Positions 6,249 through 10,202 of a DNA stretch of 64,000 nt are shown here, piece by piece. The translations under genes were made by a program, and so were the position numbers. The notes under the pieces were generated by a model that saw only the letters and a list, made by a program, of their open reading frames with translations, did not search any database and was not told the DNA's origin. The stretch's first letter is position 1. Every line of letters begins with the position of its first letter. The stretch is taken from assembly GCF_000724625.1 (NCBI RefSeq), contig NZ_CP007139.1, positions 3,534,001 through 3,598,000 on the forward strand, given 5' to 3'. The DNA comes from Fimbriimonas ginsengisoli Gsoil 348 (GTDB lineage: Bacteria; Armatimonadota; Fimbriimonadia; Fimbriimonadales; Fimbriimonadaceae).

Positions 6249-7028
6249 TTACCTTAAGGCTTTCTTGAACGACCCCAACGTCAGCGTGACCATGATTACG
6301 AAGAGGGTGGTCGCGACCAGAAACCCTTGCCAGATGGCGGGGTTGCCCCAGCCGGTTAGGACGAGGGCTCGGACGCCTTCGATGATGTAGGTGACCGGGT
6401 TGTACGACGCGATCAGACGGAAGGTCGGCGGCAAGAGCGGCATCGGCGCCTGCGAAGTGGTCAGGTACAGGAAAGGGAAGACCACTACGAAGAGCGACTG
6501 CACGAGCCGGGCGTTCTGGGTGCGGAGCGCGGAGATCATGCTGACGCAACTCCAAGCCATGGCGAAGATCATCAGCATCGCGAAGATCGCGAGGAGGCCG
6601 AGAACGCCGGTCTGGATTCGCACGCCCACCAACAGCAGCAAGACCACGACGATCGTGCCCTGCATCACCGCCTGAACCGCGACCTCGGTCAGGCGTCCCA
6701 AAATGATCGTTAGCCGGCTGATCGGCATGATCAGCAGCTTCTTAAAGTATCCGTTCGAGATGTCTTGCACCAGCTCGATCCCCGCGTTTCCCGAGGAGAA
6801 GAAGACGGCCGTGAAGAGCGCAGTCGGCGCGATGAAGTCGCGATAGGTGATGCTTGGCGGAAAGCCGGGCACCTTCGAGAACGCATCGAGCGACGACGAG
6901 TTCACGACGAAGAAGAAGATCGGAATAAACAGCGACGGGATCAGCGCCAACAAAGGCCGCCAGATCTGCTTGATGCTCCGAATCGAGAGGTAGTACCAGT
7001 CGGAAAAGAAAGTGCTCATCGGTCTCAC
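6249..7028 (-). CDS. ABC-2 type transporter permease
   Basis: 259 aa with about six membrane helices in the ABC-2 arrangement: one N-terminal helix (LLALIPSLFIPIFFFVV), a cluster in the middle (AVMQGTIVVVLLLLVGV, GLLAIFAMLMIFAMAW) and a C-terminal hydrophobic stretch. The segment IASYNPVTYIIEGVRALVL is typical of DrrB/NodJ-like permeases. GTG start at 7026-7028 overlaps the stop of the ATPase gene by 4 bases (GTGA), so translation is coupled; ATG at 7017-7019 is an alternative. With the upstream ATPase it forms a simple export system; the substrate (drug, lipid or glycan) cannot be read from sequence. Confidence 0.9.
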   Translation of the reverse strand: MRPMSTFFSDWYYLSIRSIKQIWRPLLALIPSLFIPIFFFVVNSSSLDAFSKVPGFPPSITYRDFIAPTALFTAVFFSSGNAGIELVQDISNGYFKKLLIMPISRLTIILGRLTEVAVQAVMQGTIVVVLLLLVGVRIQTGVLGLLAIFAMLMIFAMAWSCVSMISALRTQNARLVQSLFVVVFPFLYLTTSQAPMPLLPPTFRLIASYNPVTYIIEGVRALVLTGWGNPAIWQGFLVATTLFVIMVTLTLGSFKKALR

Positions 7029-7816
7029 ATTCGGTTGCGCGAGTAAGGATCGGTGGCGTTCAGATTGACCTCTTCATCGCCGAGGTTGCTTCCCGTCGTG
7101 CGGAGGAAAACATCCTCTAGGTTCTTCGCTTCGTGTTTCGCCAGAAGCTCAGGGACCGTCCCTTCGGTAACGATCTGCCCCTTATCCATAATCGCGAGCC
7201 GATCGCAAAGCGTCTCCGCTTCCTCCATAAAGTGGGTGGTCAAGAAGATCGTCATCCCGGCCCGGTTTAGCTCGCGAAGGTGATTCCAGATGAGCTGGCG
7301 CGCATGCGGATCCAGACCTTGCGTCGGTTCGTCTAGGAAGAGAATCTTGGGTTCGTGCATCAATGAGAGCGCCAAATCGAAGCGCCGGCGCATGCCTCCC
7401 GAGTAGGTGGCGGTAAACCGGTCGGCGACCTTCTCCAGCTCCACCAGCTTTAGCAGCTTGTCGACTTGGCTGGCAATCCGATCGGTGGGTAGGTGGTAAA
7501 GCCGCCCGTGCAAGTGAAGCATCTCGCGAGCGGTGGACGTCTCGTCCAGGCCGATCTCCTGCATCGCGAAGCCCACTCGCCGGTAGATCTCCTGCGGCTT
7601 TTCCTCGAACTTGAGGCCGTCGATCCTTATGTCGCCGCTGGTCCGCTTAACTAGATTGACCAGCATATTGATCGTGGTCGTCTTGCCGGCGCCGTTCGGA
7701 CCAAGAAACCCGAAGAACTCGCCCGCCTGGACGGAGAACGTGACGCCGCGAACCGCCTCGACTCCGCCTGGGTACGTTTTCTTGAGGTCTTTAACTTCAA
7801 TAATGTTGTCGGGCAT
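7025..7816 (-). CDS. ABC transporter ATP-binding protein (DrrA/CcmA-like)
   Basis: 263 aa. Walker A GPNGAGKTTT near residues 39-48, signature motif YSGGMRRRFDLA, Walker B ILFLDEPTQGLDP, and the switch histidine in LTTHFMEEAE. The C-terminal extension after the ATPase core is ~50 aa, as in drug/polyketide exporter ATPases. It is the first gene of a two-gene operon with the ABC-2 permease (4-base overlap). It is divergent from the blaI-type repressor at 7915; the 98-base gap holds the repressor operator and a TATACT box on each strand, so the exporter could fall under the same control, but no second operator is seen near its own start. Confidence 0.93.
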   Translation of the reverse strand: MPDNIIEVKDLKKTYPGGVEAVRGVTFSVQAGEFFGFLGPNGAGKTTTINMLVNLVKRTSGDIRIDGLKFEEKPQEIYRRVGFAMQEIGLDETSTAREMLHLHGRLYHLPTDRIASQVDKLLKLVELEKVADRFTATYSGGMRRRFDLALSLMHEPKILFLDEPTQGLDPHARQLIWNHLRELNRAGMTIFLTTHFMEEAETLCDRLAIMDKGQIVTEGTVPELLAKHEAKNLEDVFLRTTGSNLGDEEVNLNATDPYSRNRM

Positions 7817-7867: not shown

Positions 7868-7897
7868 TTGGGCAGATTCCGAATTCGTGGTTATACT
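7868..7897 (+). promoter_or_regulatory. predicted sigma-70-type promoter of the blaI-like gene
   Basis: -35-like TTGGGC at 7868-7873, 18-base spacer, and a strong -10 TATACT at 7892-7897. Transcription would start near 7904, inside the operator, leaving a leader of only about 11 bases with no Shine-Dalgarno before the ATG at 7915. Confidence 0.4.
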
Positions 7898-7914
7898 GAC
7901 TACACAGTGTAGTC
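7898..7914. promoter_or_regulatory. BlaI/MecI-type operator
   Basis: Inverted repeat GACTACAC-A-GTGTAGTC (8-bp arms, 1-base centre) ending immediately before the start codon of the repressor gene. It contains the TACA/TGTA half-sites typical of BlaI/MecI dyads. Its place over the predicted transcription start implies autorepression. Confidence 0.7.
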
Positions 7915-8310
7915 ATGCAAGAGACCGAACCACCCCTCAGAACCCTCGGACAGCAAGAGCTCGAAGCCTTGGAAGTCGTCCGCGAACGGGCGCCGATCAC
8001 CGTCGGCGAGATGGCGAAGGCGTTCGGTGAGCCTCGCGGACTCGCCCGGACGACGGTCCTCACGATGATGGAGCGCCTGCGCAGCAAAGGATTTCTGCAA
8101 CGGTCCAAGGAAGGGGGCGTCTTCCACTATTCACCCAAGCGCGACTCCGAGGAGGCCATGAAGGGGCTCGTCGCCGACTTCGTCCGTCGCTCCCTCGGCG
8201 GCTCGCTCTCGCCGTTCGTGAGCTACCTGGTCGATTCCGGGGAACTTAGCTCGACCGAGCAAGAGCAGCTTCGCCGCCTCGTCGACACCGTCGAGAAAGG
8301 TGGCGCATGA
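7915..8310 (+). CDS. BlaI/MecI/CopY family transcriptional repressor
   Basis: 131 aa. Winged-helix domain at about residues 12-80 (LGQQELEALEVVRERAPITV, GLARTTVLTMMERLRSKGFL, then GGVFHYSPKRDSEEA) and a C-terminal dimerisation helix bundle (SSTEQEQLRRLVDTVEKG). This is the usual BlaI length. A dyad operator abuts the ATG, and the downstream M56 peptidase gene overlaps by 4 bases (ATGA), the classic repressor/sensor-protease pair. By family, signal-activated proteolysis through the M56 partner should relieve repression. No beta-lactamase is adjacent; the regulon is unknown. Confidence 0.92.
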   Translation: MQETEPPLRTLGQQELEALEVVRERAPITVGEMAKAFGEPRGLARTTVLTMMERLRSKGFLQRSKEGGVFHYSPKRDSEEAMKGLVADFVRRSLGGSLSPFVSYLVDSGELSSTEQEQLRRLVDTVEKGGA

Positions 8311-10202
8311 ACGCCGCCAACGCGGTTGCGGAGAGTTGGGCCCGCGCCCTCTTTGCCGCCTCTTGGCAGGGAGGCCTTTTTATCCTTGGAGTTTGGGCCT
8401 TGTGCATCGCTTTCCGGCGCATGCCGCCGTGGGTCAAGTCTTGGCTCTGGTGGATCGCCTGCACCCAGATGCTGCTTCGGGTGTTTCTCACTTTGCCGAT
8501 CGCCATGGCGGTCGCGACCCCGGCCCTGCCTGCCGCCGTCGCCACCGTAGAGCATGCCATCGTGATCGAGTCCTCGCCCGCTCCCGTTACCGCCCTTGTG
8601 GAGCGGTCGACGCCGGAACCCGAACGACCGTCGCCGATGCTCATCCTTATGGGCCTCTGGGGAGTGGGAGTCGTCACCGGTGGAGGCATCGCGGTTCGGC
8701 GACTCCTCGGCGCGCGCCGCCTCGTGAAACGAGCGGCACCCCTAAATAGCGAACTGGCGCTGACGATCCTCAACGAACTCACCGATCGCCCGCCCCGCCT
8801 GCTCGAGTCGCCCGATGTGAAGTGTCCGCTGCTCGCCGGCTACGTTCGCCCGGTCATCGTAGTTCCGTCCGGGTTCGCGGACGAGCACGATGCTGGCGAG
8901 ATTCGCATGGCGTTCGCTCACGAGGTTGCCCACCTGCGTCGTCGCGACCTTTGGCTCTCGTTTGCCGTCGCGACCGTGCAAACGGCTTATTTTTTCCACC
9001 CCCTCGTCTGGCTCGCGTCTCACGAAACCGCGATCGCTCGTGAAGAGGCGTGCGACCTCGACGTTTTGCGTCTATGCGGCGAGAGCCCCAGCGTCTACGC
9101 CCATTTCCTGTTCAAGTCCGCCCAAGGCCGCACCCCGGTTGCCGCGCTGGGCGCCGCCTATGGCTACCGAAACCTTCGGAGAAGAATCACCATGCTCAAA
9201 CGAACGTCCAACCTTTCGAAATCCTCGCTCCGCCGCAGTTGGCTTGTCCTCATCGCGGCCGGCGCCGCGGCCGCTCTCCCTTGGAGCGTCGTCGCCCAGT
9301 CCAGCGCCCGCACTAAGACGCTAGGTTCGACCCTCAAGACCGCGACCGGATCGAAGTCGAAGAAGAATCACTCGGCGAAAACGATCTCGAAAAGCAAGAA
9401 GTCGAAGCCGTCCAGTTCTGCCCCAACCGGTCTAACCGGGACCGCCGGCGTCCCTCTTGCAGCCTCTCTGGTCGGCGGAGGAGTTCCCGGCGGCATGGCC
9501 GGCGGGATTTCCAGCCCCCGGTTGGGCGGGCTCCAAGTAGGAGGCGGCGCGCCGGGTGGCGTCTCTACGGCCGCTCAAACGGGAGGTTTTGGCGGGGGCG
9601 GGCTCACTGGGGCCGCCGGTTCCGGTGGATTTGGTGGCTCCGTCGCGACGGGGGGCCGCCAAACGACCACTCGCTCTGTCCGAGGCGCGTCTTCCCGAGG
9701 CGGAGGTCTGGGCACTGGGAGTGCCGCCGCCGGTGGATTTGGCGGAGGAACGACTAAGGGTGGCGGCCCCAGCGCCGGCGGATTCGGCGGAATATCCGGA
9801 GGGGGCGGCTTCGGCGGTGGCAGCGCTGGCGGCGGTCTAGGAGGCGCTGTTGAAACGGTTGGCCTGGGCGGCTTATCCGGTGGCGGTGTCGGTGGTCAAG
9901 AAGGCCCGGTCGAAGCGGACGGAGTCGTTGCCACGCCGGCGGAGAATTCGGGCGGCCCTTCCCTCGAGCGCCTCATCACCGCCGATGTGGAGCACGGCAT
10001 GGTCGAGAAAGCGATCATTCAGGTGCTGAAGGCAAGCGGAACGAACTTCGTCATCAAGGCAAAGATCCGGCCCGAGATAATCACCTGCCACTTCTCCCAA
10101 TCCTCCGCCCTAACCGTCCTTTCCTCGATCCTAAAAGGCAGCGACCAAGCCCTAACCTACCGTCGAGAAGGCGACGTCATCTACATCGTCGCCAAAGAGT
10201 AG
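8307..10202 (+). CDS. M56 (BlaR1/MecR1-like) membrane peptidase with glycine-rich linker and STN-like C-terminal domain
   Basis: 631 aa. Residues ~1-300 are a BlaR1-type membrane metalloprotease: helices at ~15-35, ~45-75 and ~110-130, zinc motif HEVAH at 205-209, downstream AREEACDLDVL glutamate ligand region, and another membrane segment near 310-330. In place of the penicillin-binding sensor there is a Lys/Ser-rich tether (~335-375), a long glycine-rich stretch (~385-550, many GGFGGG units), and a C-terminal ~80-aa domain (ITADVEHGMVEKAIIQVLKA, GTNFVIKAKIRPEIITCHF, YRREGDVIYIVAKE) that reads like an STN/secretin short N-terminal domain. Translationally coupled to the repressor. Predicted to sense an extracytoplasmic cue and trigger BlaI cleavage. 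Confidence 0.87.
   Translation: MNAANAVAESWARALFAASWQGGLFILGVWALCIAFRRMPPWVKSWLWWIACTQMLLRVFLTLPIAMAVATPALPAAVATVEHAIVIESSPAPVTALVERSTPEPERPSPMLILMGLWGVGVVTGGGIAVRRLLGARRLVKRAAPLNSELALTILNELTDRPPRLLESPDVKCPLLAGYVRPVIVVPSGFADEHDAGEIRMAFAHEVAHLRRRDLWLSFAVATVQTAYFFHPLVWLASHETAIAREEACDLDVLRLCGESPSVYAHFLFKSAQGRTPVAALGAAYGYRNLRRRITMLKRTSNLSKSSLRRSWLVLIAAGAAAALPWSVVAQSSARTKTLGSTLKTATGSKSKKNHSAKTISKSKKSKPSSSAPTGLTGTAGVPLAASLVGGGVPGGMAGGISSPRLGGLQVGGGAPGGVSTAAQTGGFGGGGLTGAAGSGGFGGSVATGGRQTTTRSVRGASSRGGGLGTGSAAAGGFGGGTTKGGGPSAGGFGGISGGGGFGGGSAGGGLGGAVETVGLGGLSGGGVGGQEGPVEADGVVATPAENSGGPSLERLITADVEHGMVEKAIIQVLKASGTNFVIKAKIRPEIITCHFSQSSALTVLSSILKGSDQALTYRREGDVIYIVAKE

Follow-up and report, generated by a model that had tools for sequence, protein, structure and literature searches.

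The analyzed window (64,000 nucleotides of the Fimbriimonas ginsengisoli Gsoil 348 genome) encodes a protein in which a BlaR1-type M56 protease is followed by a long flexible linker and ends in an STN domain of the kind found at the N-terminus of secretins (N0). This order of parts is virtually certain. The protein and the blaI-type repressor encoded with it may form a one-step proteolytic switch similar to BlaI/BlaR1, in which a periplasmic tether with a secretin N0-type docking domain would replace the beta-lactam sensor; a probability of about 0.5 is assigned to this reading. The signal of such a switch would probably be the condition of the cell envelope or of the pilus machinery, and not an antibiotic. 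To our knowledge, BlaR1-type signalling has been described almost solely from beta-lactam resistance, and no description of an M56-STN protein was found in the literature searched. The features of the locus are listed in Table 1.

Table 1. Features of the blaI-M56 operon and its promoter region (positions in the window).
Feature	Position	Strand	Evidence
Promoter-like site for blaI, TGGGCA-17-TATACT	7869..7897	+	Consensus scan, 9/12 matches; no proof of function alone
Predicted operator palindrome, TGACTA-CACAGTG-TAGTCA	7897..7915	.	Exact palindrome, TGACTACACAGTGTAGTCA
blaI-type repressor, 131 aa	7915..8310	+	Penicillinase_R, E = 9e-27
M56-linker-STN transducer, 631 aa	8307..10202	+	Single ORF; full-length model
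Peptidase_M56 domain, residues 15-297	8349..9197	+	Pfam, E = 5e-40; Foldseek of full-length model
HEVAH zinc motif, residues 205-209	8919..8933	+	Sequence; H205, E206, H209 invariant among orthologues
Gluzincin ExxxD motif EEACD, residues 246-250	9042..9056	+	E246, D250 invariant
Last transmembrane helix, about residues 312-330	9240..9296	+	Hydropathy; helix 305-323 in model
Disordered linker, residues 331-553, Gly-rich from about 9444	9297..9965	+	pLDDT; composition
STN / secretin N0-type domain, residues 554-631	9966..10199	+	Profiles, PDB profile matches, model, fold matches

The reading frame of the transducer contains 631 codons without internal stops, and its start overlaps the 3' end of the blaI gene immediately upstream by four bases (ATGA). 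Such overlapping gene ends are a usual mark of translational coupling. The blaI product itself scores below the NCBIfam cut-offs for BlaI/MecI/CopY. Four orthologues were identified in the same genus; they are divergent (31-36% identity over the whole alignment), and all of them keep the order M56-linker-STN with the STN domain at the terminus. The genome analyzed is complete (a single contig of 5,231,762 bp). Since the four orthologues, from other assemblies, show the same order in a single frame, a frameshift or an assembly fusion as the source of the architecture was rejected in practice. The first-pass annotation had named such an error as one finding that would refute its proposal that a BlaR1-type protease, a linker and an STN-like domain form one protein; the ORF, Pfam, profile and fold analyses all confirm that proposal. 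The orthologue of genome G019 (L045, G019:C74, upstream of 2047) has an in-frame TAG near the N-terminus, in the first transmembrane segment, so that a pseudogene or a sequencing error is possible there; the remaining frame is open.

According to the Pfam analysis, the N-terminal part of the protein is an M56 peptidase and not an anti-sigma domain, with a Peptidase_M56 profile score of 137.9 bits against a curated cut-off of 31. Residues 1-330 of the full-length AlphaFold2 model are mostly confident, and the Foldseek search with this model returned cryo-EM structures of Staphylococcus aureus BlaR1 as top matches (E = 4.5e-6), whereas phmmer with the M56 part alone found no match in the PDB. 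Six residues (H205, E206, H209, D214, E246 and D250) are invariant across the five orthologues. The motif residues are spaced exactly as H201, D210, E242 and D246 of S. aureus BlaR1, including the distance of 41 residues between H201 and E242 (PMC9834060). Judged from the sequence, the M56 active site is intact, and the protease is likely to act on BlaI. A low-confidence loop (residues 276-283) lies near the position of the BlaR1 autocleavage loop, which is a positional remark only. The last transmembrane helix, as seen in hydropathy and model, places the tail outside the cytoplasm. The NCBIfam blaR1 model matched residues 113-321 only, with 86 bits against a cut-off of 400, and no penicillin-binding class-D-like sensor domain was found by Pfam in the C-terminal tail. 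The tail is composed of a disordered stretch and the STN domain, in support of the initial suggestion that the beta-lactam sensor has been replaced; the operon contains no beta-lactamase gene.

As for the linker, its pLDDT is below 50 over residues 328-553 of the full-length model. Glycine makes up 34% of residues 331-553 and 41% of residues 380-553, so the Gly-rich stretch noticed at first is present here, but it is a feature of this species and not of the family: the linkers of the orthologues contain 4-13% Gly and are rich in Pro, Ala and Ser instead. Across the five orthologues the linker has drifted (69% aligned, 24% identity), while the STN domain is 98% aligned with a mean identity of 34%. 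The Gly-rich stretch was rejected as the functional core because of the low Gly content of the orthologue linkers; the comparison of the orthologues indicates that the conserved design is a protease, a flexible tether and an N0 domain, and that the use of glycine is a local solution. M56 proteins with a wholly Gly-rich ectodomain (36-45% Gly) and no STN domain were also observed (L040 and L042:2164-4272); each has its own blaI, and in two relatives their genes are found close to the M56-STN operon.

The identity of the C-terminal domain was assessed by profiles and by structure. Taken alone, the isolated tail matches Pfam STN with E = 0.009, which is under the curated cut-off and weak by itself. 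A profile built from the four orthologues without this protein recognised the tail at E = 3e-9 and, at 1e-16, a paralogue with two STN domains that are recognised by Pfam (4.9e-14). Compared with the PDB, a profile in which the tail was combined with its relatives matched the N0 domains of HofQ (3e-7) and PilQ (3.5e-6). The AlphaFold2 model of the domain (pLDDT 89) has the order beta-alpha-beta-beta-alpha-beta-beta, that is, two beta-alpha-beta repeats, and in the fold search PilQ N0 was the top match (Foldseek 5.4e-5; Z 10.1 for PilQ 4av2), and other matches were DotD, the FecR-type anti-sigma protein 4m0h, GspD/XcpQ N0 and FecA; 4m0h and PupR were among the best. With the relatives included, the assignment of the tail to the STN/secretin N0 fold is solid. 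The resemblance to secretin and TonB-receptor STN domains proposed at first was borne out for the secretin side (PilQ, HofQ, GspD), but the TonB-receptor type is less alike. Weak FecR_C profile matches were obtained in two relatives. Folds similar to N0 also occur in the baseplates of phages and contractile injection systems. Because FecR_C, FecA-type and baseplate domains share the same or a similar fold, neither the partner nor the function can be read from the fold by itself.

The architecture is not restricted to this protein and its orthologues. A census took in 91 M56 ORFs of sufficient completeness, collected in Fimbriimonadaceae and in genera close to this family; of these, 13 proteins carry a C-terminal STN domain in one to three copies and 2 further proteins carry Secretin_N repeats; the combination pointed out by the first-pass annotation was therefore found again, but it is not unique. 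A blaI gene lies directly upstream of all 13 STN-bearing M56 genes and of the Secretin_N-bearing ones. When the STN label is mapped on a quick M56 tree, five changes are required, and starred branches force no fewer than four of these, which points to repeated gain or loss of the STN domain on M56 proteins. The Secretin_N pair belongs to the starred group of nine rows that also holds the clade of the window. One of the two (L041/L057:6885-8729) has three Secretin_N domains of the N1 type as its ectodomain (E = 3e-29), and the other, from genome G004 (L196), has two. Nine M56 paralogues are encoded in the F. ginsengisoli genome, and many in the group; one paralogue in this genome (L006, genome positions 1046281-1047141) has a Pro-rich ectodomain with two secretin-type strings, VPFLSEIPIVGHAF and VPVLSDIPIIGRLF. 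Among 94 surveyed M56 ectodomains, many other phyla included, all four Pfam STN matches came from Fimbriimonas, and the profile built here found no STN domain outside Armatimonadota in this small sample, which was drawn by M56 similarity to the protein of the window.

The N0 domain is rather likely to serve in docking to a protein and not in binding of a small ligand. If the STN domain were instead a sensor of a ligand or of the cell wall (peptidoglycan, glycan or DNA) acting without a machine partner, the very diverse ectodomains of M56 proteins elsewhere, some of them ligand- or wall-binding, and the carbohydrate-enzyme genes near the operon in several orthologues would fit. However, no ligand site was identified, the tandem STN copies and Secretin_N domains of the relatives are as expected of ring-building modules, and characterised STN folds are mainly protein-protein modules; sensing of this kind is considered unlikely.

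If the domain docks on a protein, the candidates in the genome can be compared. There are four secretins in the F. ginsengisoli genome, in agreement with the four PulD-type genes reported previously (PMC4072686), and two of them have STN N0 domains and Gly-rich inserts. A 245-aa protein that joins an STN domain to a Gly-rich tail is encoded immediately before one of these N0 secretins (genome positions 2605091-2607368, L156). Matches to the STN profile were detected in 229 of 251 Armatimonadota genomes, and most of the 25 loci that were read (L164-L188) hold such an STN-Gly protein, usually directly before a secretin-like ORF. The STN-Gly proteins are about 200-280 aa long, with tails of mostly 36-48% Gly. 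A single Plug-domain receptor is encoded in the genome; the STN matches at E up to 1, a threshold at which a divergent STN domain could be missed, do not include it. Two N0 secretins and one Plug-domain receptor with no detected STN domain make a secretin-side partner likelier than a TonB receptor, on circumstantial grounds; the secretin or pilus machinery is tentatively taken as the docking partner. No secretin or pilus genes are co-localised with the operon in the orthologous loci or lie beside it here.

A TonB receptor would be the STN partner if the protein worked as FecR and PupR do. PupR combines a cytoplasmic effector, a transmembrane helix and a C-terminal STN domain, part of the receptor-facing region of this anti-sigma regulator, which helps to bind the STN domain of the receptor (PMC7186176). 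The presence of 4m0h and PupR among the best fold matches and the FecR_C matches mentioned above are in line with that layout. Such a partner is nevertheless quite improbable, because the only Plug-domain protein lacks a detected STN domain, the profiles favour the N0 domains of PilQ and HofQ, and neither a sigma factor nor a receptor gene is found beside the operon.

The promoter region of the operon indicates what is regulated. Shuffled controls contained 0.1 promoter-like sites of the kind listed in Table 1 in the region. The palindrome TGACTACACAGTGTAGTCA begins at the last base of the TATACT -10 box (7892-7897) and extends to the blaI start codon. All four orthologous operons show a pair of these palindromes in the same place before blaI, with a spacer of 6 and 27-29 bp apart, whereas the window has one palindrome, and its spacer is 7. 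For two BlaI proteins of C. thermocellum, paired inverted repeats with the similar half-sites GTCTAT and GACTAT are described, and one of the two repressors controls its own operon only (PMC8457756); the half-site of the window equals GACTAT except for the last base. The conserved palindrome is the predicted BlaI operator, and autoregulation by BlaI at this site is very likely. The palindrome and the repressor partner with its own operator, both proposed in the first-pass annotation, are thereby supported, together with the Penicillinase_R match, while no sign of a wider regulon was seen. Within the genome of 5.23 Mb, TGACTA-N5-8-TAGTCA occurs at 7897-7915 only. Whole-genome scans of the five genomes with the exact motif returned the operon's own sites plus one N8 site in one genome, and exact, relaxed and one-mismatch scans, once the operon sites were set aside, yielded no more sites than the reversed-pattern control, although degenerate sites would escape them. 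On these scans, the visible regulon is the operon itself.

An operator that marks its own operon alone in five genomes, with no other visible transcriptional output, would also suit a protease whose role is in quality control or assembly of the secretin machinery and whose substrates are other than BlaI, the BlaI loop setting only the level of the protease itself. This is hardly probable, as cleavage of repressors is what proteases of the BlaR1 type are known for, blaI is linked in all 13 STN members, and the PadR, permease-like and large secreted-protein genes after the operon in two genomes (G012 and G019) could be an output.

Two neighbouring genes were considered as targets. An ABC-2 type exporter (permease and ATPase, 6249-7816, minus strand) is divergent from blaI, and some 45 bp separate the operator from its promoter-like site (7853-7825); it is not conserved in the orthologous loci, none of which has this transporter beside blaI, and was left as unlikely. 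An unannotated, conserved protein of about 850 aa, reaching some 900 aa at most, is encoded near the operon in all four orthologous loci (L042:2-1537, L043:3224-5950, L044:9506-12094, L045:5232-7769). It was rejected, since its orientation varies across these loci and its homologue in the F. ginsengisoli genome lies unlinked, 1.1 Mb away (genome positions 4644301-4646820, with one in-frame TGA). No Pfam or NCBIfam match was found for this protein, and its PDB match was marginal (E = 0.01).

In the proteolytic switch with a docking domain, the N0 domain at the tip of the roughly 220-residue tether would dock on an N0 partner in the envelope, the leading candidates being a secretin of type IV pili or type II secretion and the HR-type protein that partners it in the inner membrane. 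In type II secretion, the N0 domain of secretins is bound by inner-membrane HR-domain proteins, GspC and GspB (PMC9239104). When the partner is bound, or when it is lost with the machine absent or misassembled, the last transmembrane helix would be pulled or freed. Once the extracellular sensor of S. aureus BlaR1 has moved with respect to the membrane, the protease becomes able to cleave BlaI (PMC9834060); the bound or unbound state of N0 would stand in for the acylated sensor. The cytoplasmic protease would then cleave BlaI, and the operon would derepress itself in a positive loop. It is also conceivable, though doubtful, that a proteolytic analogue of cell-surface signalling exists, in which M56 transducers reading the assembly state of pili or secretins through N0/N1 ectodomains and signalling to BlaI evolved several times in Fimbriimonadaceae by swaps of secretin parts. 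If the switch operates in this way, the assembly of an envelope machine would be coupled directly to transcription by proteolysis, in a culturable species. The C-terminal STN arrangement, reported as new for PupR in 2020, would extend to an output different from that of PupR (PMC7186176).

Compared with known systems, the operon shares with BlaR1/MecR1-BlaI/MecI the overlapping blaI-M56 pair, the gluzincin motifs and their spacing, the transmembrane helices, an extracytoplasmic C-terminal sensor and a palindromic operator at its own promoter; it differs in having a tether and an N0 domain in place of the penicillin-binding domain, no beta-lactamase gene and a blaR1 score of 86 of the 400 bits. 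Like FecR and PupR, the transducer sits in the inner membrane, has its effector in the cytoplasm and ends in an STN domain (PMC7186176), but protease and repressor take the place of the anti-sigma domain, there is no CJM subdomain, and no STN-bearing TonB receptor was found in the genome. The fold and the best profile matches are those of the secretin N0 domains of PilQ, HofQ and GspD, whereas here the domain is C-terminal, on an inner-membrane protease and with no secretin barrel. With M56 proteins bearing other ectodomains it shares a modular slot, in which TonB_C, CarboxypepD_reg, M23, LRR, PQQ and others are found; among the 94 ectodomains surveyed, STN was seen in Fimbriimonadaceae only. 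The system is a variant of BlaR1/BlaI signalling that is specific to this lineage and built with secretin parts, and not a new category.
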